A DNA stretch of 45,229 bases from Oscillospiraceae bacterium. GTDB taxonomy: Bacteria > Bacillota > Clostridia > Oscillospirales > Oscillospiraceae. The stretch covers positions 1 to 45,229 of the forward strand of contig JAFQCX010000049.1 in assembly GCA_017416245.1 (NCBI GenBank). Direction: 5' to 3'. The notes below the pieces were generated by a model. It was not told where the DNA came from. It saw nothing but the letters and a program-made list of their open reading frames with translations, and ran no database searches. This document shows positions 25,603 to 45,097 of this stretch, piece after piece. The number at the start of each line of letters is the position of its first letter. The first letter of the stretch is position 1. A program made the translations under genes and the position numbers.

Positions 25603-25671
25603 GTACCCAACAGCAACTATCCAAAGCGATCACATATTTAACATCTGATGATTCATCACGGAGGTTTTGTT

Positions 25672-27156: not shown

Positions 27157-27165
27157 GGTAAGGAT

Positions 27166-28647
27166 ATGATCAAGGATTTAGAATTTGCCACACCGGAATC
27201 CCAGGGCATTCGCTCTGAGGATATTCTGGAATTCATGGACTATATTGCCTATCGCAAAATCAATCTGCATTCTTTTATGATGGCGAGAAACGGCAAGATC
27301 ATCGCAGAATGTTATGTAAACCCATTCCATAAGGACTTTGCCCATCGCATTTATTCCGCCAGTAAGACCTATGTTGCTCTTGCGGTTGGTTTGATGGTAA
27401 CAGAGGGCAAGGTCAAGGTTACCGATAAGGTCGTGGATTACCTGCAGGATTACATTGACACTCCGCTGGACCACTGGGTGCAGGAAATGACCATCGAGGA
27501 TTGTCTGACTATGCGCCAGCCTATGTTCCCGGACAAGAAAAGCCTTGGTGAAAAAGACAAAGCAAGATGCTATAACCTGATGAATCATTCCTATGCGACC
27601 TACCCCAACGGCTCGATCTTCTGCTATCATTGGGCGCCGGATCTGCTCTGCGTTGCCATCAAGAGAATCACCGGCATGGAATTCATAGATTACCTGCGCC
27701 CCATTTTTGATGAGATCGGTGTTTCCAAGGACATTTGGTGTGTGAAAACAACAGAGGATTACTGCTGGGGCACCAGCGGTATTGTTTGCACGCTGCGTGA
27801 TTTTGCCAAAGTGGGCGAGTTTTTAATGCACTACGGTAACGCCGGCGGCAAGCAGCTCATTGACAGAGCGTATATAGAAAAGGCAACCTCTTCCCGGGTC
27901 TTTACCCTGTCCGCCAACAACTATGACCCCATAAGAGGCAACGGCTACGGCTATTATACCTGGATCACCCCGGACGCTGTTTTGTTCCGGGGTATGGGCA
28001 CCCAGCACTGTTACTGCTTCCGAGATAAGGATTTTCTGTTTGTATGTCAGGCAGATACACAATCCCCCACCGAGGACGACAGCCCGTGGATGTACGATGC
28101 GGTGAAGCACCTGGTTTACGACAGGATCGGCAGAAAGAAGAAAGAGGGCAAGGCTTATTTGCAGCTGCAGGAAGCGCTGCAGAATATGCAGCCGCCTGCA
28201 TTCGGCAAGCCTCACGCTGCCTATGCGCAAGAGATTGACGGCAAGACCTATACTGTCAATCCGGGCAATCCTATGGGTTGGAAGAACTTCCGATTCGATT
28301 TTGATCCCAACGGCAGCGAGGGTACACTTACCTACGAAAACGACCGTGGTGTTAAGAAGATTCCCTTTGGGATCGGTCAGCAGAAGAGAATCACATTCCC
28401 GGAAACCCACTACTATGACAAGGTGCTGGGTGTGCCTGCAGATCGGGAGTTGGACAGCACCGCTGTTTGCGAATGGCTGGAAGAGAAGAAGCTTCTGCTG
28501 CGTGTGTATGTGATCGACACCTGCTTTGGCAGTATGTTTGCCACATTTTCCTTTAAGGGTAACGAGGTTGCCCTTGCATTCCGCAAATGCGCTGAGTGTT
28601 TCCTGGATGAATACCGTGGAGATGGCAGCGGCTATCGCGCAGAATGA
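27166..28647 (+). CDS. Beta-lactamase-fold serine hydrolase, copy 2 (tandem paralogue)
   Basis: A 493-residue paralogue of the preceding gene. The first 20 residues and long parts of the middle are identical, including the SASK nucleophile and the EGKAYLQLQEALQN segment, while other stretches differ. At the DNA level the starts differ at only a few third positions, and the region near 26635-26705 and 28125-28195 is almost identical, whereas flanks diverge more. This suggests an old duplication with later partial homogenisation by gene conversion, though selection on the protein could also contribute. GAGG lies ahead of the ATG. Ends at a shared terminator. Confidence 0.9.
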   Translation: MIKDLEFATPESQGIRSEDILEFMDYIAYRKINLHSFMMARNGKIIAECYVNPFHKDFAHRIYSASKTYVALAVGLMVTEGKVKVTDKVVDYLQDYIDTPLDHWVQEMTIEDCLTMRQPMFPDKKSLGEKDKARCYNLMNHSYATYPNGSIFCYHWAPDLLCVAIKRITGMEFIDYLRPIFDEIGVSKDIWCVKTTEDYCWGTSGIVCTLRDFAKVGEFLMHYGNAGGKQLIDRAYIEKATSSRVFTLSANNYDPIRGNGYGYYTWITPDAVLFRGMGTQHCYCFRDKDFLFVCQADTQSPTEDDSPWMYDAVKHLVYDRIGRKKKEGKAYLQLQEALQNMQPPAFGKPHAAYAQEIDGKTYTVNPGNPMGWKNFRFDFDPNGSEGTLTYENDRGVKKIPFGIGQQKRITFPETHYYDKVLGVPADRELDSTAVCEWLEEKKLLLRVYVIDTCFGSMFATFSFKGNEVALAFRKCAECFLDEYRGDGSGYRAE

Positions 28648-31362: not shown

Positions 31363-33477
31363 TTATGCAATTGCCAGGATCCATTTGATGAAAAGCCTTT
31401 GATACCAAGGTTTTTCTGTAACCGCCGCAAGGAGCGTCAGACGGTAATCCTCATAACACCGCAATTCCTCCGGCTGGATCTCGTGCTGGCTGAATCTTGC
31501 CTTTTGTGCCAAATCGTCCAATTCCTTCGGAACTGTCTGGTTCAGCAGTTTTGCATCCGTGCGGAGCAATCTCCAGCGCCATATGGTACGCGCATTGGGT
31601 TGGCCGCGATTCCACAGCTTCCGCTTCACAAAAATACGTACATAACCTTGCAGCACTATGCAAAGAATCAGAAGCAGGCATCCCAGCACAATTTTCATCC
31701 ACTCATGCATTTGCCATGGTGTTTTTTCCGGCTGAGGTTGCGGCAGATCGTTTTGGTCAGGCAGATCAGGAGTCACCTCATCTTTCGGAGCGGTGGTCTC
31801 CGTCTCTTCTTCGGAGTTGCCCCCCAATCCAACAACCGGTTTCCCATCCGTTGTCTCTTTCACGGTAGGATCCTCTGCCAGAATATCGCTCCATTCGTCA
31901 GGTTTCTCTTCCTGGGGCTTGCCGGAAACGCCCAGCGGCCTTTTTGTTTCCGCGAAGCCGGGCGTTGACTCCAACACACACCAGGCCTGGGTGTTCCAGT
32001 CATAGTATTCCACCCACGCGTGGGCATTCTGCTTACTGACCACCACATCACTGCCAGATTGGCAATATACAGCATATCCTTCCACGTACCGGGCGGGAAT
32101 ATAGGCTGCCCGCAGTAGCACCGCCGTTGCCGTAGCGTAATGGATGCAATGGCCTGTTTCGCTTTCTTCCAGGAACCACTTGGCAAAATCCGTATTCTCC
32201 GAATCCATTTTTGGTGTGGCTGCATCGTATTTGGCAGCTTTGCGCACATAGTCCTGAATCCGGCTGACCTTTTCCCGGTCATCCCTGGCGCCGGCTATAA
32301 TACCCTGCACAAATTGTGTTGCCCAGGAACTCGTTTCCTCAGGAAGATCCTTATAAAGTTTGTCGGGGCTTGCCGTTTTTTTGACATGCGAATTGGAGAA
32401 ATTGTAACTGTATTGCTCGATGTTCTTGTCATTTTTCACGGCGCCGCCAATTACCTTGATCCCCTTCGTCGCATAATAAGGAACGTACAACACATCCTTG
32501 ACGCCGTAAGTCATAATTGTCAACTTGCCCTGCGATATAGCGCCTGCAGTGAGTGTCTCCTCCCGGTCGGTTCCTTCCCAGCCGATGCCGGTATACGCAT
32601 CGAAATCCCGCTCCCGCAGATACAAGACCCCGTCAACAGGCGAATTGACCAGCATCACCGAACGGGATGACCTGCTTCTGGGACCTACCGCCAACAGATT
32701 GCGGCTTTCGACCGAATCTGAAGGAAGGGGTGTGCCGTTGATCACCGCTTCCACGATCTCCCAGAGGTCCTCGAACCACACAACTACCTCTTTTTGAATT
32801 CTGCCTGCGCGGTTTATGTACTCCGCTTTGGGGTTGCAAGCAAGCAAGATCGCCAAGGCCAGGCCAACAGGGAGCGCTGACCAAAGGAGCATTTTCATAC
32901 CTTTCTCAGGCTGATTTTTCCGGCTCCAATCTGTTATTAACAGAACTGCCAGTCCCAAAATCGTCAAATACAGGTATGCTGTTGCAGGCACTTTGAATGC
33001 GGTCATCAGGCATAGGGCCAGCGGCATCACTGCCGGTACAATTGCCACGGCAATATGTTTCCGCCGGCAAATATGCCAGTTCACACAGACCGCCACCAGC
33101 ACAGCCCAAAACATCAACGGAGCAGTTACGTGATCTGCGCCCGGGTTTCCCAAAACCGGCCAGTTATAAGTGGCGTGATAATGGGAAGTAATCCAATAAC
33201 TCAGCTCTTGTATCTGCAGCCATATGTAGGGTCGGAACAACTCTTTCACGAGCATTACTGCCAACACAACGGCTGCGACACGAAGAATCATCTTTTTGTT
33301 AAGCTGGAACTGAAACAGCACTGCAGATCCCAGCGCTGCCAAAGCGCTCATCAGAAAAATTTTCCACAGGTGCACCGACAGTTCGTAGGCGGTGAACAGG
33401 TTTCCCACCGCGCTGATAGCCAGCATAAATGCAACAGCTGCACTAAGCAGACAAGGAAGCCATTTTTTAACCTTCAT
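31363..33477 (-). CDS. Transglutaminase-domain membrane protein (TgpA-like)
   Basis: A 704-residue protein with about six N-terminal membrane helices (residues about 7-210), a large extracytoplasmic part, and one membrane helix near the C-terminus (WMKIVLGCLLLILCIVLQGY) followed by a cytoplasmic tail. The external part holds a transglutaminase-like fold with the Cys in SETGHCIHYATATAV (about residue 440), the His in NAHAWVEYYD (about residue 486), and an Asp just after. A Pro/Glu-rich linker lies before the last helix. ATG 33477 is chosen for GGAGG; it overlaps the DUF58 stop by 11 bases. The moxR-DUF58-tgpA set is common, with an unclear role in envelope protein processing. Confidence 0.88.
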   Translation of the reverse strand: MKVKKWLPCLLSAAVAFMLAISAVGNLFTAYELSVHLWKIFLMSALAALGSAVLFQFQLNKKMILRVAAVVLAVMLVKELFRPYIWLQIQELSYWITSHYHATYNWPVLGNPGADHVTAPLMFWAVLVAVCVNWHICRRKHIAVAIVPAVMPLALCLMTAFKVPATAYLYLTILGLAVLLITDWSRKNQPEKGMKMLLWSALPVGLALAILLACNPKAEYINRAGRIQKEVVVWFEDLWEIVEAVINGTPLPSDSVESRNLLAVGPRSRSSRSVMLVNSPVDGVLYLRERDFDAYTGIGWEGTDREETLTAGAISQGKLTIMTYGVKDVLYVPYYATKGIKVIGGAVKNDKNIEQYSYNFSNSHVKKTASPDKLYKDLPEETSSWATQFVQGIIAGARDDREKVSRIQDYVRKAAKYDAATPKMDSENTDFAKWFLEESETGHCIHYATATAVLLRAAYIPARYVEGYAVYCQSGSDVVVSKQNAHAWVEYYDWNTQAWCVLESTPGFAETKRPLGVSGKPQEEKPDEWSDILAEDPTVKETTDGKPVVGLGGNSEEETETTAPKDEVTPDLPDQNDLPQPQPEKTPWQMHEWMKIVLGCLLLILCIVLQGYVRIFVKRKLWNRGQPNARTIWRWRLLRTDAKLLNQTVPKELDDLAQKARFSQHEIQPEELRCYEDYRLTLLAAVTEKPWYQRLFIKWILAIA

Positions 33478-34393
33478 TCTGCTTACCTCCGATATGGTAC
33501 CGCCAGACCGCATGAAAGGCTTGCTCCCGGATGGAGCCTTCCTTGGCAAAGGGTGTGCCAAGAAGCGTCTGTATGCATATGTCCATCTCATCATCATTCT
33601 GGATGGTCCAACCCTCAATGCCGTTAGCGGTCAAAACCCGCAGATCGAAAGTGACCTCCCGTTCCAGCAGCCATCGGCCCAACCAAAGAAGTTGACCCAA
33701 TTTGGTGTCCAATTCGGCTGCCGTGCCGTTTAAATCCATGGTCAGCAGCATCAAACCACGCGCCGACTCCATGGGTTCCCGAACCATCAGGTCGTCCACC
33801 TTGGCCGACAGTTTCCAATGAATGTTATTCAGATTATCACCGGGGCGGAATTGCCGGATCTCATGATTTTCCGCATAGCCACCGCCGGGTTTGGGCCGCC
33901 AGCTCTGCGCCAAACGTCCGTACAGATTCGGAGGAATTTCCAACTCTACCGGTTTAGGCAGCACCAGAACGGTCTGTCGGGCGGGCTTTCTGATCCTGAT
34001 GTGGAACAGGCCAAGATAATCGCAAGCTCTGGGCTTATACAATTCAACATAAAATTTGCCGCAATGTTCCGTAGGGAATTCAGCATCAGATTTGATCTGC
34101 CAGCTCTCACCCGTCGTAGGCTTTGTGATGTGAATTTTGCTGCTATAGGGCGGCAGAGACAGTTTGGAGAATACATTCAGCTGTATCCTTTCAGCGCTGC
34201 CCATGGGCATTATGGGTGCCACTACCAGGTCCGTCCGCAGACTCAAAATGGCAACGAAACTCAAAAGCAGGGACATCAGCGGCAAGAACACCACAACCTG
34301 TAAAAGGACCCAGGAAAACCACAATTGATAGGCCATATAAAATACCACACAGCCTACCAGCGCCAAGAAATAAATAATTCTTTGCTTTGCCAT
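33467..34393 (-). CDS. DUF58 domain protein
   Basis: A 308-residue protein with two N-terminal membrane helices (residues about 6-50), a beta-rich middle part, and the DUF58 signature RPGDNLNNIHWKLSAK at about 185-200, followed by VWA-like segments such as LLTMDLNG. DUF58 proteins partner MoxR ATPases and are thought to act in protein complex assembly at the membrane. It begins one base after the stop of the moxR gene and overlaps the transglutaminase start, so the three are translationally coupled. Confidence 0.9.
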   Translation of the reverse strand: MAKQRIIYFLALVGCVVFYMAYQLWFSWVLLQVVVFLPLMSLLLSFVAILSLRTDLVVAPIMPMGSAERIQLNVFSKLSLPPYSSKIHITKPTTGESWQIKSDAEFPTEHCGKFYVELYKPRACDYLGLFHIRIRKPARQTVLVLPKPVELEIPPNLYGRLAQSWRPKPGGGYAENHEIRQFRPGDNLNNIHWKLSAKVDDLMVREPMESARGLMLLTMDLNGTAAELDTKLGQLLWLGRWLLEREVTFDLRVLTANGIEGWTIQNDDEMDICIQTLLGTPFAKEGSIREQAFHAVWRYHIGGKQNEG

Positions 34394-34394
34394 A

Positions 34395-35348
34395 TCAGTA
34401 CATCCTGGGCGCAGGTACCTGCTTGAGAATTTCCGCCAGGACCATCTCGGCAGTCAAATTGCGCGCCTCGGCCTTGGTTGAAAGTATCAGCCGGTGGGCG
34501 ATCGTTGTAGTAAAGACCTCCTGTACATCGTCGGGCAACACATAATCCCGACCGTGGAGCCAGGCCATAGCCTTGGCCATAGCGGTCACAGCAAGGGTTG
34601 CGCGGGGGCTGGCGCCGCGGGCAATGTATTCGTTGGTTCTTGTTTCCACGATCAGTTCCACAATATATTTCACTACAGAGCTTTGAACATAGGTGCGCTC
34701 CACTTCCTCCTGCATCGCCACCAACTTTTCATTGGTCAGCAGCGGAGTCAGTTTATGCAAAGGATTGCCCTCCTGTCGCTCCATAACCATATTGACTTCC
34801 TCATTGGGGGCAGGATAGCCCAAGCTCAGCCGCACGATGAATCGGTCCATCTGGCTGTCGGGCAGCAGTTGTGTACCCGCAGCACCGGTCGGGTTTTGGG
34901 TCGCGATGACGAAAAAGGGTTCAGGCAGTTTATGGCTGATGCCGTCAACAGTAACCTGCCCTTCTTCCATAGCCTCCAAAAGAGCGGACTGGGTGCGGGA
35001 GGTTGCCCGGTTCAGTTCGTCTGCCAAAAACAAGTTGCATATGATTGCGCCTTTTTGATAAACCAGTTTGCCGGTCTGACGGTCGGGAACAGAATAGCCG
35101 GTTACGTCAGAGGGCAGTACGTCGGGAGTAAACTGGACGCGGCTGTATTCCAAGTTCAAAACTTTGGAATATGCCAGCGCCATCGTGGTCTTACCCACAC
35201 CGGGCACATCTTCCAGCAAAACATGACCCTTTGCCAAAATGGCCGCCAGTACCCACTGCAGTACATCTTCCTTGCCCACAACGACCTGTTGGATCTGACC
35301 CAAAATTTGCTGCGCAGAAACTGCAACAGCATTCTCTGTTTTTTCCAT
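34395..35348 (-). CDS. MoxR-family AAA ATPase
   Basis: A 317-residue AAA+ chaperone-like ATPase of the MoxR group. Walker A is DVPGVGKTTMA (about residue 45), Walker B LFLADELNRA, sensor 1 VIATQNP, and the C-terminal lid contains SPRATLAVTAMAKAMA (seen as GASPRATLAV). MoxR proteins help activate or assemble partners with VWA-like domains, here the DUF58 protein. ATG 35348 is chosen because GGAGG lies seven bases upstream, and because the longer frame runs into the promoter. First gene of the operon. Confidence 0.95.
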   Translation of the reverse strand: MEKTENAVAVSAQQILGQIQQVVVGKEDVLQWVLAAILAKGHVLLEDVPGVGKTTMALAYSKVLNLEYSRVQFTPDVLPSDVTGYSVPDRQTGKLVYQKGAIICNLFLADELNRATSRTQSALLEAMEEGQVTVDGISHKLPEPFFVIATQNPTGAAGTQLLPDSQMDRFIVRLSLGYPAPNEEVNMVMERQEGNPLHKLTPLLTNEKLVAMQEEVERTYVQSSVVKYIVELIVETRTNEYIARGASPRATLAVTAMAKAMAWLHGRDYVLPDDVQEVFTTTIAHRLILSTKAEARNLTAEMVLAEILKQVPAPRMY

Positions 35349-35375
35349 AATCTTACCTCCAAATGCATTTGTATT

Positions 35376-35405
35376 ATTATAGCACGCACCCATATCAAAA
35401 CGCAA
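35376..35405 (-). promoter_or_regulatory. Promoter of the moxR operon
   Basis: TTGCGT (35400-35405), 18 bases and TATAAT (35376-35381) with TGC before it, on the minus strand. Confidence 0.7.
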
Positions 35406-35641
35406 GTAAAATAACGTTCCAGCAATCTAAACACCGCGCCGGTGTCAAATCGATACCAAACGAAGATTGATAGATTTCATTTGCTTGAAAAGTTAGAAAA
35501 ACACCGGATTTCTTTCAGCAGCTTTCAGCACGGGGACTCTGCCATAATATCGCCTAAGAAGGTTATTTTCATATTCTCCCCTCGTTTCTTTTCCTTTGAT
35601 TTTATATGCCATAAATACAGTGGCTTTTCAACCACAGACGC
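35406..35641. other. Gap with one small dyad
   Basis: This stretch upstream of the moxR promoter has no gene. The only structure seen is the dyad ACACCG-CGC-CGGTGT (35431-35445), about 26 bases above the -35 of the moxR promoter, which might be an operator. Confidence 0.35.
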
Positions 35642-35671
35642 AAAAAGTCACCTCCGAGGAGGTGACTTTTT
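35642..35671 (-). terminator. Terminator of the sipW-TasA operon
   Basis: A long stem AAAAAGTCACCTCC / GGAGGTGACTTTTT, with T-rich flank on both strands, eight bases beyond the last gene of the operon on the minus strand. Confidence 0.88.
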
Positions 35672-35679
35672 TCAGCTTA

Positions 35680-36231
35680 TTAGTTGGGAATCAGTTCCCC
35701 ATCTGCGGGGGTAATGCCCCAGGCATCCTGCACGGCAGCATCGGGGGCAGATTGGATGGCGGCAGCAATAATCCGGATATTCAGACGGAAGCCCGTGGGC
35801 GCTGATACTGCCGCAGCCCTTTCAATTAGCGGAGCAGTCAGTGCCTCCGGCGCAACGGCATTGGCGTAGTACCAGTAGCCGTCTGTACCCTTTCTCCAGC
35901 CGGTAGCGCCCCAAGTGACGGTATAATCCACGCCCTCCTTTGGGGTAACGGCTGAGACCTTGCCCTCATCGGACACGAAGTTGACCACAACTGCCGCCCG
36001 GATATAGGCATCGATGTTGCCGGTATTTCGTATCGTTACATCGCTTTTTACGCCGTCTTGAAAGGTTTCTTCCACAACACAGGAGACCTTGGCAGGCACA
36101 AATTCGTTGGTCACTGGGTCGGTTTTTGCGGAAAGATACGCATAAACACCGGTGGCGCATAGGGCAATGCTCAGGCATACAACTGTAATCAGTATGGCTA
36201 TTTTATTGCGTTTGCCGGAATTTGCTCTCAT
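35680..36231 (-). CDS. TasA/camelysin-like (SipW-dependent) secreted protein 4
   Basis: A 183-residue exported protein, last gene of the sipW operon. Its N-terminus has a basic start, a hydrophobic stretch and the boundary ATGVYAYLSAKTD, followed by NEFVPAKVSC, matching the AY-[LF]-[ST]...N-x-F pattern shared by the other three subunits and known from TasA and camelysin. The mature part is beta-rich (DVTIRNTGNIDAYIRAAVVV, the typical strand with a Gly-Asn-Ile). It is about half the length of the first subunit. ATG 36231 is chosen for AAAGGAG; longer frames reach into the neighbouring gene. It may be a minor or tip subunit. Confidence 0.82.
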   Translation of the reverse strand: MRANSGKRNKIAILITVVCLSIALCATGVYAYLSAKTDPVTNEFVPAKVSCVVEETFQDGVKSDVTIRNTGNIDAYIRAAVVVNFVSDEGKVSAVTPKEGVDYTVTWGATGWRKGTDGYWYYANAVAPEALTAPLIERAAAVSAPTGFRLNIRIIAAAIQSAPDAAVQDAWGITPADGELIPN

Positions 36232-36250
36232 AGCAAGGATCTCCTTTCGT

Positions 36251-39200
36251 TCAGAATTGATTATCTCTAAGGGTGTTGCCGTCCAACCATTTGCCATTTT
36301 CACGGCTGTTATCATAGATGATTTCGTTGGAGCCGTCATTATAGGTCAGATTCACCTTCCGCTTTGCCGCGCTGTTCTCGTACCGCCATGACCAATCTGT
36401 CAGCTCGGTTACGGTATAGCTGCCGGTGGGAAGCTTGGTGATAGTAACAGAGTCATCGCCCACAACGGTTACAGTCAGGTCAACACCTTCTGTTTCCGTG
36501 CCGGCTTCGCCCTGAATACGGAAGATGAACACTTGATCTCCATCGATTGCCGCGGTGGATACTGTGGTAAGGATCAAGTCCGTTTCCAGCGCTGCAAACT
36601 TGGCATAGTAGGTAGTTGCCGTCCACACAGTGCCGGTCATTTGCGGTGTTAGCTTTTGCTGAGCATCCACCCATGCGGGATCCACAGGCTCGGTGCAAGC
36701 GGCATCCTTATACCAACCCACAAACACAAAGCCGTTCTTCACAAGGGGCTGAGAGCCATTGGGCTGACCGCTGATAGCAGGCAGGTTTTCAGATTCCATC
36801 GTCAGGCTGCCGCAGCTATCAGGCCCTACGATCTGATATTTCAGGCCAACCGTGGTTTCCTCGTAGTAGAATTCAATCACATTCATGGTCTGATTTGCGG
36901 AGATGGCGATCACCTTGAGATTTTCGCTGACAAGCTTATAGCCGATGGCCTCAAAGTTTCTGGCATATTCTATAACCTGCTCGCCAAAAGCTGCCGTACC
37001 TACATAAGGGTCATACAAATCTTCATTGGTACGACTGTCAATGTATCTTACCTGATACTGATAGTCCAGACGGTCATAGTAAAATTCGATCAGCGCACCA
37101 TCCTCTGTCAGTCTGGTAGTGACAGACGTGCCGGAGCCGGGCTGCGCCACACCGTTCACCGTGGTCTTGTCCGGGTTGTAAGCAAAGCCGGTGAGGGTCA
37201 GGGCATTGCCGGTGCAATCCTCGCCAATGACGCCCACATTATCTTCAGCGCTGAATTCCCGGTAGGAATTGCCCGTGATATTCTCAATGTAATGGACCAC
37301 ACGGTAGTAGGCATGTTTTTCGTCAGCACTGTAGTGGAAGGTGATCACATTGGCATCGTAAATACCGTCACCGTCACTATCGGTTTTGTCCGCTGAAAGG
37401 ACAAGCCGCTTCTGGTAGGCATCGGGCATCATTTTGCTTGCCCGCACAAAGGTTTCTGTAACAACAGACAGGCCATTATCCATAACCCTCTTATCCGGGA
37501 AGACTTCGTTGCCATTTTCGTCCAGATACCGGACCTTATAGGGCATAGCCTCCACATATTCGTAATAGAAGGTGAATTCGTGGTTTCCTTCAGCGCTCAT
37601 GGTGATGGTATGGCTGCTGGTTTCGGGGAAATAGCCCTCCCGGAAGCCTTCGTAAAGGTCACTTTCTGTCTTTGCGTAGAAGGTCTTATTGTTACCCACG
37701 ATGGCGCTGCCGATGGTGGGAGCAGCGATTTCTTCGCCGGTTTTCCGCAGTTTATAGTAGATTTTGTAGTCAACGGAGAAGTGGGAGCCCCAACGGGCGT
37801 AGATGTTCATATCCTTCAAAACGGGAATGCCTTCGAACACAAAGGCCTTCTCCACCTTTTGGCCACCCACCTCATCCTCATAGAACCAGCCAAGGAACAC
37901 ATAGTTGCCGTTGGTAATATGTCCTGCGGGAGCCTTGGCAAAATCACCGTGGTCCACAATCTGGTCTGTACCCAACTGCTGTGTCATGGATTTGTCCTTA
38001 TACACTCGCACAGTGTGCGTAATGGGCTTCCATTTTGCATACAGAAGCAGGTCGCCCTCCGGCATTGTGGTATTTTCCCAATCCATCTGGGTGCCGTCAA
38101 AGCAACCGGGAGAGGTATACCAGCCATCAAAGGTATAGGCGTTGGGTTCCAGATTTGTGGGGTATGGCGGCTCAAAGTTATAGCCCTTGACCGGTGCGCC
38201 GTACATAACACCGGTAACGGTTTCATCGTCCATCACGATACCGTTGTTGCTAAAGGATATCTTATGGTCTACGATACGGTCATAGTAGAAATCCGCGATT
38301 CTGTCAGAGGGCTTGATCTGTGTGCCGCTTCCAAAGTCCGGGTCTGCAATGTACTGGTCAAAGCCACGGATGGGGAAAAAGTCCTCTGCCTTGGTGACCA
38401 TACCGTATTTCGCCTTAATTTGGGTATAAAGGGCATAGTTCTTGCCCTTGTAGGTCACATCATAAGCTTCACCCGGCAACACCTGCAGATAGTAGTTCAT
38501 GGTATACAGGGAGTTGGTAGAGGTATTCACTGTCAGAGTAAAGCTGTCGCCGGGCATCTCATCAATATAGACAAGCACCTGGTCATAGAGGCTTGTGCCG
38601 GAGGGAGACCAGCGCTGGCCATCACTATAGACAACACCATTGTCATCCTTTACCGGCCAAATGTCCTTCAGCGACTGTCTGTACTTGGCATAGACGATCT
38701 TGACCACCTTGCCGTTGGTACCCTCATTCGAGTGGCTATGGGTTGTGGGAATTCCACAAATCAGACGCTTGCAGGTATCCGTATGGGTGTGCTCCACCGT
38801 GCCGCAGGAATACTTATAGCAGTAGTCCCCGTGGGTGTGCAGAATGTCCCGGTAGCAGCTATCCTGATGCCTGTGGGGTTCCTGAGCGCAGCTGCAATCT
38901 GTGCCGTGGATGTGGGCTGTCTTGCCGCAGACGGGCCTTACGGTATCTCCGCTGGACACATTTCTGCCTGTGTAGGAATACCAGTCACCGCCAATATAAA
39001 TATAATAGCTGGTAAACCACCAACTGGTGGTTGCGTAGATCTCGCCTTCCTCCGGATCCGAAGGAGCGCCGGACAGAGAGCCTTGCCGGTTGCCCACATA
39101 GTTCCAGCAATCTGTGGAGTGGGTATGCTCTTCTTTATCGCAGCTGCAGCCGGTTGCGCCGTGAATATGCTCCTGCTTTCCGCAGATGACACACCCGTCG

Positions 39201-40825
39201 GTATGGGCTGTGTGTTCCTCTGTGGTACAGATCAGTTCGGAAACACAGTCGGCTGTATGGGTATGACCCAAACCGCAGATGATATCATAGCAGGCTTCAC
39301 TGTGGGTATGGGAGGTAGGCAAAATACAAGTGCCGGAGGCCTTGAAGGTAATGGAATAATAATTTCTTGTGTAATATACATTCACGACGGTTGAGCCGTC
39401 ACCCTCAACCAGTACGTTTTTGTCGGATTTACTTGCATTGAAGGTGAAATGCTGTTCATCATCAATGCCGGCCACGCGGGAAATATAGTCCTGCGCGCTT
39501 ACATAAGAGCCGGACATTGCCGGCAGGTTATCCAGATAGCCCCAATAGGTATAGCCGTTGTCGTTGGCATTTTCGCACCAGAACACCATCGTATAGGTGG
39601 TTTCCCTGGTGATCCAGCGAGCCTTATATTTCAGGCTTGCCGCAGGCACTTCAATGGTGCCGCCGGTATTGAGGGCATACTGAGATTTCTGTTCGTTAGT
39701 GGGAGTCTGTCCGCCATAGGACACCAGCTCCCAGCCGTCAAATATATAGCCGTGGCGGGTGGGGGTATTTGCGCCCACTGTGGCGCCGAAACGGGTATAA
39801 ATCGGTTCGGTACCGTAGCCGCCACCCATATCAAAGGATATTAAGTAATAGTTTCGGTCGTAGCGGATCTCCACGACGGTACTGCCGTCGGCCGCCACTA
39901 CCAGCGTTTCATCATAGTCCAGTGGCTTAAAGCCGGGAAGCTGGTCTTCTGTATAGGCCAGTCCGGGGCCAACCAAAGAACCGGTCAGGCCTTGTCTCTC
40001 TGTGGTCTTATGGTCTGTAGCATAGTCATCGTCCAGCACATTCTGGAGGTGGTGGTGTACCTTAAAGTCCACCAGCGTGGGTTCGTAAATAACATTGATC
40101 GTGATATTGCTGTTCACACTATCAATATTGAAGTAGATGGAGTCTGCCTCCACATACGCATTGCCATCCCGGCGGAAGGGCTTATAGCCCATGATCTTAG
40201 GACTCTCAATGGGTTTTTCCGGCTTAAAGGGAGAGCCCGCTGCCACCGTCGCGCCATAAGGCTCGAAGGCGATGGTGTTATCATCAAACAGATAGTTGAT
40301 GACGATGGAATAGGTGGTAAATTCTTGATTATTACTTCTGGCTGCCCGGAGCTTTGCCGGAGCGCTGTTAACAGGGCTATTGTAGTAAGGCGGGAATTCC
40401 TCAACCTTCAGAGAAACCGTCACCTTGACCGGGTCAGAAAAAGCCTCGCCGGCATCCGTGTCCAGACGGCAGCGGAGCTGGGCGGTATTATCCTCCTCCA
40501 GCATACTGCCCACAAGGGCGTAGGTTACCCAAAGGTGTTTGGTGTGGCTATCTGCAATATCCACCCAGGATTCATCCTCAGGGTTTCGAATCTGCCACTG
40601 ATAGCCGCTTGCAGTGTTTGCATAGTCCACATCAAAACGCAGCTTGGCGCCATCCTCCAAAACCACCTGGGAGATGCGCTCCTCATTCATGGTTACATAG
40701 GGTTTTGCTTGTTCCGCTGAAAGGACGGACACCGATATGGGTGACAGTAAGCCACAAATCGCGGCTATGACCAAAAGCAAAGCCATGGCCTTGACGATCT
40801 TTCGATTGCGGAAAAATGCGCGCAT
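36251..40825 (-). CDS. Giant secreted repeat protein with InlB-type repeats and His/Cys array
   Basis: A 1524-residue secreted protein. Residues about 1-36 are a signal peptide (VLS-AEQ cut). Then: an Ig-like domain (about 45-145); MucBP-like beta repeats; InlB-type B repeats (for example YTFDGWYTSPGCF near 900); a His/Cys array at about 505-700 with some ten CxnHxHxxxC units such as HTHSEAC and HIHGTDC; more MucBP-like repeats (about 1010-1310); and a C-terminal prealbumin-like domain with LPTGSYTVTEL. It lacks an LPxTG motif and a final membrane helix, so it is probably held by non-covalent binding, perhaps to the TasA-like fibres. The array may bind zinc. Confidence 0.88.
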   Translation of the reverse strand: MRAFFRNRKIVKAMALLLVIAAICGLLSPISVSVLSAEQAKPYVTMNEERISQVVLEDGAKLRFDVDYANTASGYQWQIRNPEDESWVDIADSHTKHLWVTYALVGSMLEEDNTAQLRCRLDTDAGEAFSDPVKVTVSLKVEEFPPYYNSPVNSAPAKLRAARSNNQEFTTYSIVINYLFDDNTIAFEPYGATVAAGSPFKPEKPIESPKIMGYKPFRRDGNAYVEADSIYFNIDSVNSNITINVIYEPTLVDFKVHHHLQNVLDDDYATDHKTTERQGLTGSLVGPGLAYTEDQLPGFKPLDYDETLVVAADGSTVVEIRYDRNYYLISFDMGGGYGTEPIYTRFGATVGANTPTRHGYIFDGWELVSYGGQTPTNEQKSQYALNTGGTIEVPAASLKYKARWITRETTYTMVFWCENANDNGYTYWGYLDNLPAMSGSYVSAQDYISRVAGIDDEQHFTFNASKSDKNVLVEGDGSTVVNVYYTRNYYSITFKASGTCILPTSHTHSEACYDIICGLGHTHTADCVSELICTTEEHTAHTDGCVICGKQEHIHGATGCSCDKEEHTHSTDCWNYVGNRQGSLSGAPSDPEEGEIYATTSWWFTSYYIYIGGDWYSYTGRNVSSGDTVRPVCGKTAHIHGTDCSCAQEPHRHQDSCYRDILHTHGDYCYKYSCGTVEHTHTDTCKRLICGIPTTHSHSNEGTNGKVVKIVYAKYRQSLKDIWPVKDDNGVVYSDGQRWSPSGTSLYDQVLVYIDEMPGDSFTLTVNTSTNSLYTMNYYLQVLPGEAYDVTYKGKNYALYTQIKAKYGMVTKAEDFFPIRGFDQYIADPDFGSGTQIKPSDRIADFYYDRIVDHKISFSNNGIVMDDETVTGVMYGAPVKGYNFEPPYPTNLEPNAYTFDGWYTSPGCFDGTQMDWENTTMPEGDLLLYAKWKPITHTVRVYKDKSMTQQLGTDQIVDHGDFAKAPAGHITNGNYVFLGWFYEDEVGGQKVEKAFVFEGIPVLKDMNIYARWGSHFSVDYKIYYKLRKTGEEIAAPTIGSAIVGNNKTFYAKTESDLYEGFREGYFPETSSHTITMSAEGNHEFTFYYEYVEAMPYKVRYLDENGNEVFPDKRVMDNGLSVVTETFVRASKMMPDAYQKRLVLSADKTDSDGDGIYDANVITFHYSADEKHAYYRVVHYIENITGNSYREFSAEDNVGVIGEDCTGNALTLTGFAYNPDKTTVNGVAQPGSGTSVTTRLTEDGALIEFYYDRLDYQYQVRYIDSRTNEDLYDPYVGTAAFGEQVIEYARNFEAIGYKLVSENLKVIAISANQTMNVIEFYYEETTVGLKYQIVGPDSCGSLTMESENLPAISGQPNGSQPLVKNGFVFVGWYKDAACTEPVDPAWVDAQQKLTPQMTGTVWTATTYYAKFAALETDLILTTVSTAAIDGDQVFIFRIQGEAGTETEGVDLTVTVVGDDSVTITKLPTGSYTVTELTDWSWRYENSAAKRKVNLTYNDGSNEIIYDNSRENGKWLDGNTLRDNQF

Positions 40826-40869
40826 AACGGTGTCCTCCTTTCTTAAAAATTATGCAGAAACAAAAATAC

Positions 40870-41640
40870 TTATTTAATATCGGAATGAAACGGGAACTGC
40901 TCTGGGAAGGCCAATGTCATAGCCTGAAAGCAATCGCTCAGCGACTGCGTCTGTACGCCATAGGCCTGCACATCTATCCTCAGTTCAGCCAGCTCTTGCA
41001 TATGGGCATTGTTCCACATCTGATCAAAAACAACCTTGTCAAAAATCGTTACCGACTCCCCTACTGCAAAAGGCTTCAGCATCAGGAAATAGAATTCATA
41101 TTTCCCTTCTGCGATATCCGCCACCTGGATCATTGCATAGCGGTCATTGACGCAGACATCCTCGATGCCGTTCCAATTCTCCACCTCTACGTGCTCGTCC
41201 AGCAAACCACCGGTGAGAAGTCGCTCAATATCGATTTCTGCATAGCCTGAGTAGCCGATAACCTTATGCAGGTCGCCGGCGCCATCGGTGAGTGTCACCT
41301 TGGCGGCGATCCATTCAGGCGCATCACCGGTGTTGGTGATGGTAGGATCCTTGTAAACATACATACCGGGATAGACCCTGCCGTAGTCACGGACTTCAGA
41401 CATATCTCTCTTGCCGGTAAACATCATCTGCGCCGGGTCCTTTACAAGGTTGCCATATGCATCCGGCTTTACCGCGGATTCCACAAGGGTAATTTTCACA
41501 TTGCCGGCGGTAAAGGTGTTGGTGGCCTGCTTGGTAGCAGTAAAATAGGCAACGGTCACGCCAAGGAACATCAGCACAAACGCCGAGAGGATCACACAAC
41601 TCATAATCAGATTAAATTTCACAATTTTCTGTGTATGCAT
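40870..41640 (-). CDS. TasA/camelysin-like (SipW-dependent) secreted protein 3
   Basis: A 256-residue exported protein. The N-terminal hydrophobic stretch ends in GVTVAYFTATKQATNTFTAG, the SipW-type boundary, followed by NVKITL. The mature protein has the family-typical PTITNTGDAPEWIAAKVTL strand and a late RIDVQAYGVQTQ. TasA-like proteins polymerise into matrix fibres in Bacillus; here a subunit role is inferred. AAAGGAGG precedes the ATG by eight bases. It follows subunit 2 by 15 bases and precedes the giant protein. Confidence 0.87.
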   Translation of the reverse strand: MHTQKIVKFNLIMSCVILSAFVLMFLGVTVAYFTATKQATNTFTAGNVKITLVESAVKPDAYGNLVKDPAQMMFTGKRDMSEVRDYGRVYPGMYVYKDPTITNTGDAPEWIAAKVTLTDGAGDLHKVIGYSGYAEIDIERLLTGGLLDEHVEVENWNGIEDVCVNDRYAMIQVADIAEGKYEFYFLMLKPFAVGESVTIFDKVVFDQMWNNAHMQELAELRIDVQAYGVQTQSLSDCFQAMTLAFPEQFPFHSDIK

Positions 41641-41655
41641 TGTCTAATCCTCCTT

Positions 41656-42186
41656 TCATGGGTTTAGCGCCTGCCAGGCAGCGGCCGGGGTTGCAAAGCC
41701 GTCGCTTTGGACGGCATAGGCGGTGACTGTCAGAGTGGGATTCACGGTGATGGCGTTCAGTTGTTCCTCGGTCAGAGTGTCCCTTATACGGACACTGTTA
41801 TTTTTCAGCACCGGGAACGCCTGATTTGCAGAAGATTTTTCCACCATCAGGTAGAAAACGCCTGTCTGCCCTTCCAGAGCTGTCCAACCGTCATGAATCT
41901 CATAGGTGCAGTAGGTATCAAAGTCGTTTTCCTTTTCTACCTTCACAAAGAGCCAGCTTTTTTCACTGTTGGCCAGCACCGTTACGGTGGGGTCCTTGGG
42001 AACGGTGACACCCGGGGTCATTTTATACTCGGTAGTAGTCTCCGTCAGGGTGATATCCACACCGCCTATGGTAAAGGTGTTCACAACCGGCTTGGATGAG
42101 GCAACGAGAATCGCCACCGTAACTCCAACGCTCACTGCCAGCAGCAGCGCTAACGCAATTATGAGCCCAATCAGGCTTTTTCTCAT
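41656..42186 (-). CDS. TasA/camelysin-like (SipW-dependent) secreted protein 2
   Basis: A 176-residue exported protein. The signal region ends VSVGVTVAILVASSKPVVNTFTIG; compared with the other subunits it has VAILVAS in place of the AY-[LF]-[ST] boundary, so its cleavage could be slower or at another site. The mature part contains GGVDITLTE, PTVTVLANSEKSWLFVKVEK and a final VTAYAVQSDGF, all shared with subunits 1 and 3. The ribosome site AAGGTGAGG is close to the ATG. It lies between subunits 1 and 3 in the operon. Confidence 0.84.
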   Translation of the reverse strand: MRKSLIGLIIALALLLAVSVGVTVAILVASSKPVVNTFTIGGVDITLTETTTEYKMTPGVTVPKDPTVTVLANSEKSWLFVKVEKENDFDTYCTYEIHDGWTALEGQTGVFYLMVEKSSANQAFPVLKNNSVRIRDTLTEEQLNAITVNPTLTVTAYAVQSDGFATPAAAWQALNP

Positions 42187-42244
42187 TTCCTCACCTTCTT
42201 TCTATAAAGCCTTCAAATATATGGCCGAATTTCAGTGATTAGCC

Positions 42245-43189
42245 CTAAGGATTCGCATTCTCGGGATTCTGAACAGAGGGAGCAGGAAACAGAGCAAAGC
42301 TTGCCTCTTTACCTGGAGCTTTGTCGTATGCAGCATTACCTTCGAGACTTGTGTCGTAGGGATTCACAGGATTCACAATACCGCACTGATAGGGGAAGGA
42401 GGTCTTAACTGCTGTCCATGCAGCACCGGTCACAGCGTGCTTATCGCTACTTTCAGCGCCGGTGAAGCCGGTAGTCTGAATAGCAAATGCGGTAAATGTT
42501 ACATGGGCTGCGCCGTAAACGGTTACATCCACATTGGGATGTACTGTGAAACTCTCGCAAAGCTTAATTTCGGATTTTGCACCCTTGGATACCGCAGTAG
42601 GAGTAATCACGCCGGTATCCTTATTACGGGTACCATATACCCAAACGATTTCGGAGCCGTCACCGCTTCGCACATACTCAACCCAGCCATTTGCTTCCAT
42701 CTGCTCACGCATAGACAGAGGGGTGTCGGCTGTTGCGGGGTCATCATCGCGAACACGGTCATTATAGTTACCGGCCTCAGCGCTGCGAATCAGGTTTGCA
42801 GACTTGACGAACAGGTACATCTGATCATCGCTGTTGATATAAATAGTGGGATCCTTGATGTAGTTTTTACCGGGGAGCAGGTGATAGCTGTTGGTATCAA
42901 TCTTTACAATTTTGTCTCCGAGAGTAGCCTTGTCAATTGAATTGCCTTCGGGATCTACCAGCACACCTGCATCGTTAAGCTTGGCAATCACATTGCCGTT
43001 AGCGTCTACCATGTAACCATCGGGGTTCACCTTGGACTCCTTCATATCAATGCTGACCTTACCTACGGTGAACACGTTGGAAACACCAGAAGATGATGTC
43101 AGGTAGGCGATAGTGGCAAACACAGAGCCAGCTACCAATGCGACTGCACACAGAGTAAGTACAACTGCAGTCAAAAGTTTTTTCTTCAT
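42245..43189 (-). CDS. TasA/camelysin-like (SipW-dependent) secreted protein 1
   Basis: A 314-residue exported protein, the largest of the four subunits and the first after sipW. Its signal region ends SVFATIAYLTSSSGVSNVFTVG, a clear SipW-type boundary, followed by VSIDMKES. Mature strands include PTIYINSDDQMYLFVKSAN and VTFTAFAIQTTGF, the counterparts of those in subunits 2 and 3. Position and size fit the major fibre subunit. The C-terminal about 45 residues are Asn/Pro-rich and lack an anchor. ATG 43189 is chosen for GGAGG eight bases upstream; the longer frame begins within that site. Confidence 0.88.
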   Translation of the reverse strand: MKKKLLTAVVLTLCAVALVAGSVFATIAYLTSSSGVSNVFTVGKVSIDMKESKVNPDGYMVDANGNVIAKLNDAGVLVDPEGNSIDKATLGDKIVKIDTNSYHLLPGKNYIKDPTIYINSDDQMYLFVKSANLIRSAEAGNYNDRVRDDDPATADTPLSMREQMEANGWVEYVRSGDGSEIVWVYGTRNKDTGVITPTAVSKGAKSEIKLCESFTVHPNVDVTVYGAAHVTFTAFAIQTTGFTGAESSDKHAVTGAAWTAVKTSFPYQCGIVNPVNPYDTSLEGNAAYDKAPGKEASFALFPAPSVQNPENANP

Positions 43190-43223
43190 TTTTTGTTCCT
43201 CCATTTGAGATTATTTATTAAAA

Positions 43224-43237
43224 ATGCCTTTTGGCAT
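43224..43237 (-). terminator. Short hairpin between sipW and the first fibre gene
   Basis: The minus strand can form ATGCC / GGCAT around AAAA, followed by TTTTTAA, immediately past the sipW stop. The stem is short, so it may act as a weak attenuator or RNA-processing site that separates sipW and fibre expression levels. Confidence 0.45.
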
Positions 43238-43239
43238 AT

Positions 43240-43779
43240 TTAACCATTGGTGTTTTCCTCGCCCGCTTCAGGCTCGGATTCTTTTTTCGCAGGGAAAAGC
43301 GCATCGATTATGTAAGAGATGGCCAGCACCGCTGCGCCGGTTCCCACCACAGTGATCAGTCCCTTGGGCTGCTGCAGGAAATTGGACAGATAGCCTAAGT
43401 AAGGGATACTGAAGGTAGCCTTGCCGATCACGGCAGAAGCAGGGGTAATTCCGTCCACGGTTTCATTGGCATCGCCCTGGGTGCGGAAGCCCAGGTTCGG
43501 CGTGCCCTCCCCGTGTACCTCGATGATACGGTGGGTGGCAATCACATTGCCTGTGAGGTGGAAGGTGATAGGATCGCCCACCTTCAGGGTGGTGGGATCC
43601 ACCTTCTTTACATAGACGACAGAACCCACATGGTAGGTCGGCTCCATGGAGCCGGAAAGCACGGTGTAGGGGGTAAAGCCAATTACCCGGATTCCCACCA
43701 GCGCAATCGCCAGCAGAACCACCGCTGCAACCAATGCGGTGCTCAGCGTTTTCGATATGATTTTAAAGATTTTTTCCAT
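43240..43779 (-). CDS. sipW: SipW-type signal peptidase I
   Basis: A 179-residue membrane peptidase of the SipW/ER type. One membrane helix (about 12-34) leads to the catalytic SGSMEPTY with Ser44, and the second active-site residue is His83 in IATHRI, in place of the Lys of ordinary bacterial signal peptidases; this His marks the SipW type. A second helix lies near the C-terminus (LITVVGTGAAVLAISYIID). SipW enzymes process TasA and TapA in Bacillus, and the four TasA-like proteins downstream are probable substrates. ATG 43779 is chosen for GGAGG. It leads the operon under a strong promoter. Confidence 0.93.
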   Translation of the reverse strand: MEKIFKIISKTLSTALVAAVVLLAIALVGIRVIGFTPYTVLSGSMEPTYHVGSVVYVKKVDPTTLKVGDPITFHLTGNVIATHRIIEVHGEGTPNLGFRTQGDANETVDGITPASAVIGKATFSIPYLGYLSNFLQQPKGLITVVGTGAAVLAISYIIDALFPAKKESEPEAGEENTNG

Positions 43780-43794
43780 TTCATAGCCTCCGCA

Positions 43795-43830
43795 GCAGGT
43801 ATCTGTGCAGCACAAAACAGATATACCTGC
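43795..43830 (-). promoter_or_regulatory. Leader hairpin before sipW
   Basis: Between the promoter and the ribosome site the leader can form a 7 + 5 pair stem (GCAGGTA and TCTGT with their complements, two-base bulge) that ends three bases before GGAGG. It could limit ribosome access or stabilise the long operon RNA. Confidence 0.55.
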
Positions 43831-43840
43831 TCAACATTAT

Positions 43841-43869
43841 ATTATACGCCTCCGATTTTGATATTTCAA
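43841..43869 (-). promoter_or_regulatory. Promoter of the sipW-TasA operon
   Basis: TTGAAA (43864-43869), 17 bases, TATAAT (43841-43846) on the minus strand, about 60 bases before the sipW ATG. Confidence 0.82.
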
Positions 43870-44227: not shown

Positions 44228-45097
44228 TTACTCATAATCTTTAATAATGTGATTTGCCACCCATCTGTTTACCTCCGGCGTAAAGTGAACTGCATCTTTA
44301 ATAAACAAACCGTTACCGCGAATGTTTGGGACATATTGCGGAGCATTGCGAACATCGAAAATCGAAACATTCTCATACTGCTTCTGCAACATATCGAAAA
44401 CACTGTTGATATAATTCATGTTTGCAAGATGTTTTCCCGTTGGGTCCCTATCATTCATTCGATCAGGGCATACAATTTTATGCAACACAATCGGCGGGGT
44501 ATTTAGAAGAGTGTTAAATAAATCAAGTAATTTTGTATAAATGTTTTTGAGAGATTTCGATAAACATTCATCTGTTGCGGTAACATCGTTTTCTCCTCCA
44601 CGCCAGTGAAGACCAATAATCTCGTAGTCAATATCCATTTTTACAAAGCTATCATCAAGCAAGCCGAATATATGCTCACAAAATGGAAAAAGAGAAATAT
44701 CTACTGTACCAAGCTTGCCGGGAACTAACTTTTTCTCTCGGTCGGGGTGCCACATATACCCATCAGTGACACCCTGTGCGCCTATTGCAATCTGAATAAT
44801 ATAAAGATCAGGCAAGCCTAACACGTTACCGCTGTCAATATGGTTTTGCCAAAGAGCTGCCAGGCAGTTCGCAATGGAATAGGTGTTGTCCTGTTCTTCA
44901 GCAAGATTCATGCCAAAACTTGTATAGCCACTCCAAACAAGTTCCTTATTATCAAAGGATTGATTATCTTTTCGGCTCAGTCCGAACACATTTTCCAAAG
45001 GCGTATTTATAATATCCTTTTCTTCCATAGGAATTCCGTGACCAACTGCATTGGATTGCCCCAAAAGAATAAAAACTGCTGCTTTTTTATGTTGCAT
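44228..45097 (-). CDS. SASA-family carbohydrate esterase (sialate O-acetylesterase-like)
   Basis: A 289-residue SGNH-type protein of the SASA family. Block I is ILLGQSNAVGHG with the nucleophile Ser; LHWRGGEND is the typical WxxGEND-like block, here with RG; and the closing Asp-His is in IKDAVHFT. Such enzymes remove acetyl groups from sialic acids or plant glycans; the substrate is unknown. No signal peptide. It is clearly more A/T-rich than the rest of the window (for example many AAA and ATA codons), which may indicate later acquisition. The ATG has AAAGGCGG. Single gene with own promoter and terminator. Confidence 0.88.
   Translation of the reverse strand: MQHKKAAVFILLGQSNAVGHGIPMEEKDIINTPLENVFGLSRKDNQSFDNKELVWSGYTSFGMNLAEEQDNTYSIANCLAALWQNHIDSGNVLGLPDLYIIQIAIGAQGVTDGYMWHPDREKKLVPGKLGTVDISLFPFCEHIFGLLDDSFVKMDIDYEIIGLHWRGGENDVTATDECLSKSLKNIYTKLLDLFNTLLNTPPIVLHKIVCPDRMNDRDPTGKHLANMNYINSVFDMLQKQYENVSIFDVRNAPQYVPNIRGNGLFIKDAVHFTPEVNRWVANHIIKDYE

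Follow-up and report, generated by a model that had tools for sequence, protein, structure and literature searches.

In Bacillus subtilis, the tapA-sipW-tasA operon encodes SipW-processed beta-sandwich subunits; TasA forms its fibre by N-terminal donor strand, the freed N-terminus being the donor strand (PMC9674648), and TapA is an accessory protein that starts the TasA fibre (PMC10151520). The Bacillus cereus sipW-tasA-capP-calY system is a sortase-independent heteropolymer with an accessory protein localized to the wall (PMC13082335), and the Clostridium perfringens sipW-bsaABCRSD operon, a clostridial sipW operon, encodes several secreted proteins and gives a stable polymer (PMC7395162). 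We analyzed a six-gene sipW operon in a 45,229-nucleotide (nt) stretch of DNA (hereafter the window) from an Oscillospiraceae bacterium (assembly GCA_017416245.1, contig JAFQCX010000049.1), which is contig C48 of a genome bin that is 65.6% complete. The operon is real and conserved, and its sequence marks it as a variant of the SipW/TasA filament systems for which we propose a tip and a base; the window holds a split version of it. Our literature search (bioRxiv and most subscription journals lay outside it) found the Bacillus and C. perfringens systems and no description of this operon, in agreement with an earlier first-pass annotation of the window, which had not recognized the gene combination as a described system.

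All six genes lie on the minus strand (35680–43779), in the order sipW, S1, S2, S3, giant, and S4. The gene order in relatives across Clostridia was sipW-TASa-TASb-TASc-giant-S4-anchor. As defined from three-subunit operons, TASa is the subunit next to sipW, TASc is next to the giant, and TASb lies between them; the anchor is a secreted protein unrelated to the subunits. Lengths below are in amino acids (aa).

43841–43869 (read 43869–43841), minus strand: promoter-like site, TTGAAA-17-TATAAT, 11/12 consensus match, the top score in the scanned region.
43240–43779, minus strand: sipW, archaeal-type signal peptidase I, 179 aa (from MEKIFK), by TIGR02228.
42245–43189, minus strand: S1, extra TasA/BsaA-like subunit, 314 aa, by TIGR04088 (below cut-off) and the TASa and TASb profiles.
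41656–42186, minus strand: S2, proposed shaft subunit of TASa type, 176 aa, by the TASa profile and the best matches in relatives.
40870–41640, minus strand: S3, proposed shaft subunit, TASb-like, 256 aa, by TIGR04088 (over cut-off) and the TASb profile.
36251–40825, minus strand: giant putative adhesin, 1524 aa, ordinary signal peptide, by Flg_new stretches and C-terminal homologues in relatives.
38666–39319, minus strand: His/Cys-rich stretch of the giant, approximately residues 503–720, bounds by eye from the translation.
36254–36610, minus strand: CnaB-like C-terminal domain of the giant with WLDG tail, residues 1406–1524, by alignment, profiles, and the predicted fold of a relative.
35680–36231, minus strand: S4, partner of the giant and proposed tip adaptor, 183 aa, by TIGR04090 (below cut-off) and synteny with the giant.
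35632–35685, minus strand: intrinsic terminator at the S4 end (stretch folded), −21.6 kcal/mol, z −5.43.

The intergenic gaps were 50, 58, 15, 44, and 19 nt in operon order. These gaps, the promoter, and the terminator confirmed the single transcription unit proposed in the first-pass annotation (one promoter, one terminator, gaps of 15–60 nt). The promoter scan gave 17 matches of at least 9/12 when 13.0 were expected, so weaker matches mean nothing. The terminator is a strong hairpin with a T run after S4, and none of 200 shuffles folded as well; the same hairpin was absent from the list of a separate terminator scan. We used the S1 start at the ATG following GGAGG (an earlier ATG at 43204 gives 319 aa) and the 183-aa form of S4 (an alternative 219-aa open reading frame, ORF, begins inside the giant gene).

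The B. subtilis operon differs from this arrangement in having no giant, no S4 (no direct comparison of TapA with S4 or the anchor was made), and a single main subunit. In the available text on B. cereus, the system has three parts, no giant with a CnaB-like end, and no fixed seven-gene order (PMC13082335). The C. perfringens operon resembles the window operon in that S4 matches the BsaA family model, below its cut-off; it differs by a two-component regulator inside the operon, and neither a giant nor an anchor is described in the available text (PMC7395162).

S4 came straight after the giant in nearly every locus. An S4 profile scored at least 93 bits in 26 of 400 genomes of the same family (that of the window included). 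The giant domain lay directly upstream of S4 in 13 of 14 loci retrieved via S4 alone (the miss being L054), and the anchor lay directly downstream of S4 in 11 of 16 such loci. In the eight loci first found through the giant domain, all had an S4-adjacent giant and seven had the anchor. The window, which has the giant and lacks the anchor, was left out of these synteny counts. When named genomes were scanned with the anchor family, 80 of 113 loci were retained, 42 of them with S4; this set was selected by anchor and is thus uninformative on anchor frequency. The giant domain was upstream of S4 in 39 of the 41 named loci with enough sequence, and of the two misses one was an artefact of overlapping longest-ORF starts (L139) and one was real (L084). 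Other named loci had a subunit and an anchor without the giant-S4 operon within the flanks covered. At class level, S4 matches at E ≤ 1e-20 occurred in 19 of 391 genomes from several families, seven of them at 150 bits or more (own genome included). Complete copies were present in Merdimmobilis hominis An559, Hespellia stercorisuis DSM 15480, Clostridium porci WCA-389-WT-23D1, and Holdemania sp. Marseille-P2844. The four small proteins are not equivalent: S4 stands apart as a partner that almost always accompanies the giant. In the gene-order survey proposed in the first-pass annotation, sipW of relatives was followed downstream by a giant that shares the C-terminal domain, and neither of the outcomes that the annotation had named as refuting its reading occurred. 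Searched against PDB sequences, the S4 profile gave one match below 0.001 (8fk7), which was lost with a larger alignment; a plasmid search with SipW gave 23 records, all below 60% identity. A record titled Candidatus Saccharibacteria (L130) carried sipW, three subunits, and an anchor, and is possibly a mis-binned Clostridia contig.

The window SipW passed TIGR02228 (101.5 bits, cut-off 51.85), which upheld its earlier identification, and did not pass NF046067, the model for Bacillus SipW (96.3 bits, cut-off 190). By these models, it is of the same type as Bacillus SipW but not the Bacillus equivalog; from SGSMEP and ATHRI we take its active site to be of the Ser-His type. The small proteins gave lower scores. 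None reached the gathering cut-off of the TasA/camelysin family PF12389 (22.5; S1, 16.2 bits; S3, 17.0 bits; S2 and S4, no match). TIGR04088, the SipW-dependent signal peptide (cut-off 19), was exceeded by S3 (31.7) and not by S1 (16.1), and S2 and S4 were unmatched. The BsaA family TIGR04090 (cut-off 60) was not reached by S4 (28 bits) or S3 (20.1 bits), and S2 had no curated-family match in the scans of window proteins. Scans of aligned relatives strengthened the likeness: at E ≤ 0.01, TIGR04088 was matched by 20 of 22 aligned TAS proteins, and distant likeness to TIGR04090 was found in all 24 scanned S4 proteins and 15 of the 22 TAS proteins. These scans support a SipW-dependent BsaA/TasA group that takes in the small proteins. 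The first-pass annotation had proposed four TasA-like subunits; membership in this group stood, but by curated models the TasA likeness exceeded a cut-off only for S3, with S1 and S4 below, and the four proteins did not prove equivalent. The TAS profile had no match among PDB sequences at E ≤ 1.

Subunit position was kept in 72 of 78 best hits among 26 three-subunit operons, whereas permutation gave 26.0 on average and 45 at most (window included, some records present twice, hits above 85% identity dropped). The window's own rows ran counter to its gene positions because its subunit set differs. S2 was closest to TASa (202 bits; TASb, 98 bits), and its best hits in relatives (47–51% identity) occupied the position adjoining sipW. 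S3 was closest to TASb (106 bits; TASa, 62 bits; TASc, 59 bits), and S1 was equally close to TASb (78 bits) and TASa (76 bits). No TASc was found in the window operon by comparison with the group profiles. Among distinct proteins with a hydrophobic N-terminal segment, a crude motif for SipW-type signals was present in 202 of 208 TAS proteins, 58 of 61 S4 proteins, 3 of 44 giants, and 2 of 91 anchors; with copies and cut proteins included, the counts were 222/231, 62/67, 4/63, and 2/104. By this motif, TAS and S4 proteins carry SipW-type signals, and giants and anchors carry ordinary ones. Most TASc proteins listed (for example, L125 9416–9985) end in a GWPxE-like tail, whether or not a giant is present in the locus.

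We collected 71 giants (66 distinct), which share the C-terminal domain and differ in their ectodomains. By motif, 21 of the 66 distinct giants had a VWA-type site; of the rest, 27 had at least two F-x-G-W repeats and 18 had neither. At least three His/Cys motifs were present in 19 of the 66. Lengths ranged from 202 to 2207, the shortest giants being truncated by contig ends. In the window giant, Pfam models at E ≤ 0.1 matched only three Flg_new stretches. As a whole, this giant had matches in 10 of 61 same-family genomes (nine besides its own, only partially), and its last 125 residues had matches in 9 of 150 genomes, its own included. Its His/Cys-rich stretch consists of HTHxxxC repeats that are common to some relatives and possibly bind metal. 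The 'giant' of Hespellia stercorisuis (L074, 8381–9373) is only 330 aa long: its signal is followed by just a Pro/Thr-rich stretch and the C-terminal domain, which makes it a minimal form of the system.

The alignment of 25 giant C-terminal domains contained 10 invariant columns, among them the W, W, and R of WSWRY, a Glu, an Asn, and the W and L of the tail; a loose tail pattern (WLx and a G-like residue) fitted 64 of the 66 distinct giants. Profile matches to CnaB and pilin families were weak (E no better than 0.001 with the whole chain and 0.017 with the domain stretch alone), and the predicted fold of the C-terminus of a relative's giant (L104) gave pilin and CnaB matches (8bdw, TMt 0.65–0.67). 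The domain is thus a CnaB-like pilin fold by the model of the relative, and weakly so by profile; this prealbumin-type fold agrees with the prealbumin-like C-terminus described in the first-pass annotation. No Pfam match over cut-off was obtained in the present scans for this domain, for S4, or for the N-terminal domain of the anchor.

Sortase pili have a tip adhesin, a shaft, and a base. The present system resembles them in its apparent tip, shaft, and wall-base logic, in the VWA-type site of some giants, and in the CnaB-like domain. It differs in that no sortase signal was seen on giant or shaft; of the two anchor forms, one carries such a signal. None of the 66 distinct giants, that of the window included, has a hydrophobic segment within its last 80 residues; the first-pass annotation had described the 1524-residue protein as having no sortase signal. 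Only the L028 giant fitted a loose LPxTG pattern, without a hydrophobic segment, and no LPxTG-type signal was seen by eye in S1–S4. The genome of the window had one sortase match.

Among the five operon anchors scanned, two had SLH domains (L031 and L034); the other three (L027, L028, and L030) had, by eye, a TG motif, a hydrophobic helix, and a basic tail, one of them with a MucBP domain. The N-terminal domain that the anchors share (VMPGDxxTQ) had no match in the domain scan of these five, and the anchor profile had nothing below 0.09 against PDB sequences.

The window operon lacks TASc and anchor, and both are adjacent elsewhere in the same genome, on contig C14. The single anchor of this genome (C14:81626–82282) was found with a profile containing it and scored 176 bits with a profile excluding it; the subunit directly before it is a TASc (148 bits, compared with 67 for the next group). 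In general, the subunit preceding an anchor without an adjoining S4 was TASc in 43 of 46 loci (37 of 40 without copies). Among 41 sampled genomes of the genus, S4 occurred in 10 (at least 147 bits) and the anchor in 11 (at least 179 bits): all 10 S4 genomes had the anchor, compared with one of the other 31. The anchor adjoined S4 in seven of the 10 (G428 with a second anchor apart) and was apart in three (window, G412, and G373). Of the seven with an adjacent anchor, six had TASc in the operon (in one of them a contig-end fragment of it), and the contig of the seventh broke off within the giant. With G279, a same-genus genome from the family set, four genomes (window, G279, G373, and G412) thus had an operon without TASc or anchor and the pair elsewhere; in G373, the pair lies upstream of sipW. 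The giants of G279, G412, and G373 were 93%, 54%, and in part 30% identical to that of the window. The C14 region (C14:80000–99999, L025) is a second sipW cluster, with two signal peptidase genes, TASc, the anchor, and a 216-aa protein; it also encodes proteins of 783, 963, and 1780 aa with weak TAS-profile hits, and a similar layout recurs in many named Clostridia.

Sequence distances, adjusted for the average over the remaining five families, were correlated across 32 complete operons (35 before near-copy removal), with the window excluded because two genes are missing. The highest values were TASc-anchor (0.62), whose genes are far apart, giant-S4 (0.53), which are neighbours, and TASa-TASc (0.42). 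TASb-giant (0.23) and TASb-S4 (0.22) were lower, and, apart from TASa-anchor, the other nine pairs were at or below 0.09. In 500 random subsets of 70%, the three leading pairs were among the top three 500, 468, and 401 times, respectively, and the same three led a first run on 21 operons. With plain distances, TASc-anchor and giant-S4 led in the whole set, without long anchors (7 of 32, picked by length), and in the named-only and unnamed-only subsets. Gene adjacency alone was rejected as a cause, since two neighbouring pairs were uncorrelated (S4-anchor, −0.15; TASc-giant, −0.09) and the distant TASc-anchor pair was high. The simplest reading of these values is a chain giant-S4-(TASb)-TASa-TASc-anchor.

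Two neighbour pairs were folded as single chains with AlphaFold, using proteins of relatives, none from the window: giant end with S4 (L104), and TASc with anchor (L125, from a same-genus relative). The first gave two confident domains (mean predicted local distance difference test score, pLDDT, 88.5), with tail and linker at approximately 45 and a predicted template modeling score (pTM) of 0.56. A structure prediction of the kind suggested in the first-pass annotation, which had proposed that strand complementation may hold the giant, yielded two good domains but no established interface; the model gives docking no support, nor is it a fair test against it because the uncleaved signal helix sits between the domains. 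The second had a mean pLDDT of 80.0 and a pTM of 0.57, with an N-terminal strand (residues 2–13) at pLDDT 60–70.

Synteny, co-occurrence, and correlations together make it probable that the window operon encodes the tip and shaft of a TasA/BsaA-type donor-strand heteropolymer, with the giant at the tip via S4 and a TASc-anchor base from the second locus. By trimming the signal peptides from S1 to S4, SipW would expose on each subunit an N-terminal strand that can be donated to its neighbour. Because the freed N-terminus of TasA is the donor strand, SipW-dependent subunits should sit within the chain, and giant and anchor, with ordinary signal peptides, would form its two ends. The CnaB-like domain and WLxG tail of the giant, placed where a sortase pilus would have its sortase signal, would dock on S4, which would connect the giant to a shaft built from TASa- and TASb-type subunits. 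On the wall side, the shaft would end in TASc, followed by the anchor, a TG-motif or SLH protein, and in the genome of the window we infer that this base is supplied from C14.

Several observations weigh against this model. Besides the window, six of 24 S4 loci lacked an adjoining anchor (L029, L039, L040, L051, L053, and L054). The split represents one clade plus possibly one more case, that is, one or two events rather than four, because the window giant closely resembles those of G279 and G412 but not that of G373. The bin is incomplete, so C14 could be mis-binned, although relatives show the same arrangement. Within the proposed shaft, TASa-TASb (0.09) and TASb-TASc (0.06) were only weakly correlated, and the TASa-anchor value (0.36) is at odds with a simple chain; distance correlations are no proof of contact, and relatedness or shared module history could contribute. 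Folding established no interface for either pair. The L125 model did match the TasA fibre 8aur (probability 1.00, E 7e-4), which speaks for a filament, but at rank 15 (TM-scores 0.25/0.35, root-mean-square deviation 11.9), behind long two-domain alignments to unrelated proteins.

The alternative that survives best is that the window operon makes unanchored TasA-like matrix fibres decorated by the giant and released, and that the C14 pair serves only the other sipW cluster. The anchor is absent from the window operon, a separate sipW and further SipW-type proteins lie beside the C14 pair, many named loci hold the pair without a giant-S4 operon within the flanks covered, and C. perfringens BsaA polymers are mainly extracellular (PMC7395162). 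However, every S4 genome of the genus sample had the anchor, even when apart, and TASc and anchor left the operon together; we regard release as unlikely, although it is the most serious competitor.

Covalent joining of giant and subunits by CnaB-type isopeptide bonds, which would give sodium dodecyl sulfate (SDS)-stable ladders as for BsaA, is considerably less probable. A CnaB-type triad normally gives a bond within one domain, and the Lys-Glu-Asn triad is incomplete in the window giant, which has Thr instead of the strand-A Lys. On the other side, the Glu and Asn of the triad are invariant in the 25 aligned domains, the strand-A Lys was found by pattern in 47 of 66 giants tallied (not located in seven; copies included, 5 of the 71 giants untallied), and BsaA polymers withstand SDS and formic acid (PMC7395162).

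An equally improbable alternative is that the C-terminal domain attaches the giant straight to the wall, as in WxL proteins, and that S4 is a secretion chaperone and no filament part. WxL systems display large proteins non-covalently through a conserved C-terminal domain and a partner, and the present system is similar in having a large protein with such a domain, including a strongly conserved WL-containing tail, and a partner; a WxL-interacting protein (9i25) also appeared far down the TASc-anchor fold matches (rank 35, root-mean-square deviation 21; weak). The window giant had no WxL family match at E ≤ 0.1, however, the partner S4 has a SipW-type signal and BsaA likeness, and the fold matches of the domain are CnaB-type pilin domains. 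The idea that the giant is simply unanchored is weakened by the existence of the anchor family; in general, the system does not lack an anchor.

Elsewhere in the window, genes for a MoxR-like ATPase, a DUF58 protein, and a transglutaminase lie directly downstream of the operon terminator on the same strand (31366–35405). A 289-aa ORF upstream of the operon (44228–45097) had no Pfam match at E 1e-5 and contains a GQSN motif, which we presume to be like that of sialate O-acetylesterases. Two tandem PF00144 proteins (serine beta-lactamase fold family) are encoded on the plus strand at 25648–28644, near GH20 and GH28 genes.

More broadly, we tentatively propose, at somewhat less than even odds, that Clostridia use a capped modular TasA-type pilus in which the S4 adaptor and the CnaB-like WLxG plug replace the sortase signal and mount interchangeable giant tips, and in which a swappable base, made of TASc and an anchor of SLH or TG-motif type, can lie at a separate locus and serve more than one filament of the same cell. 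The proposal would point to three protein families, namely the C-terminal plug of the giant, S4, and the N-terminal domain of the anchor, and complete copies in named strains make the system testable. If the proposal is true, then many gut Clostridia would have a tip-shaft-base pilus that works without a pilus sortase, which would explain how giant putative adhesins are displayed without wall signals.

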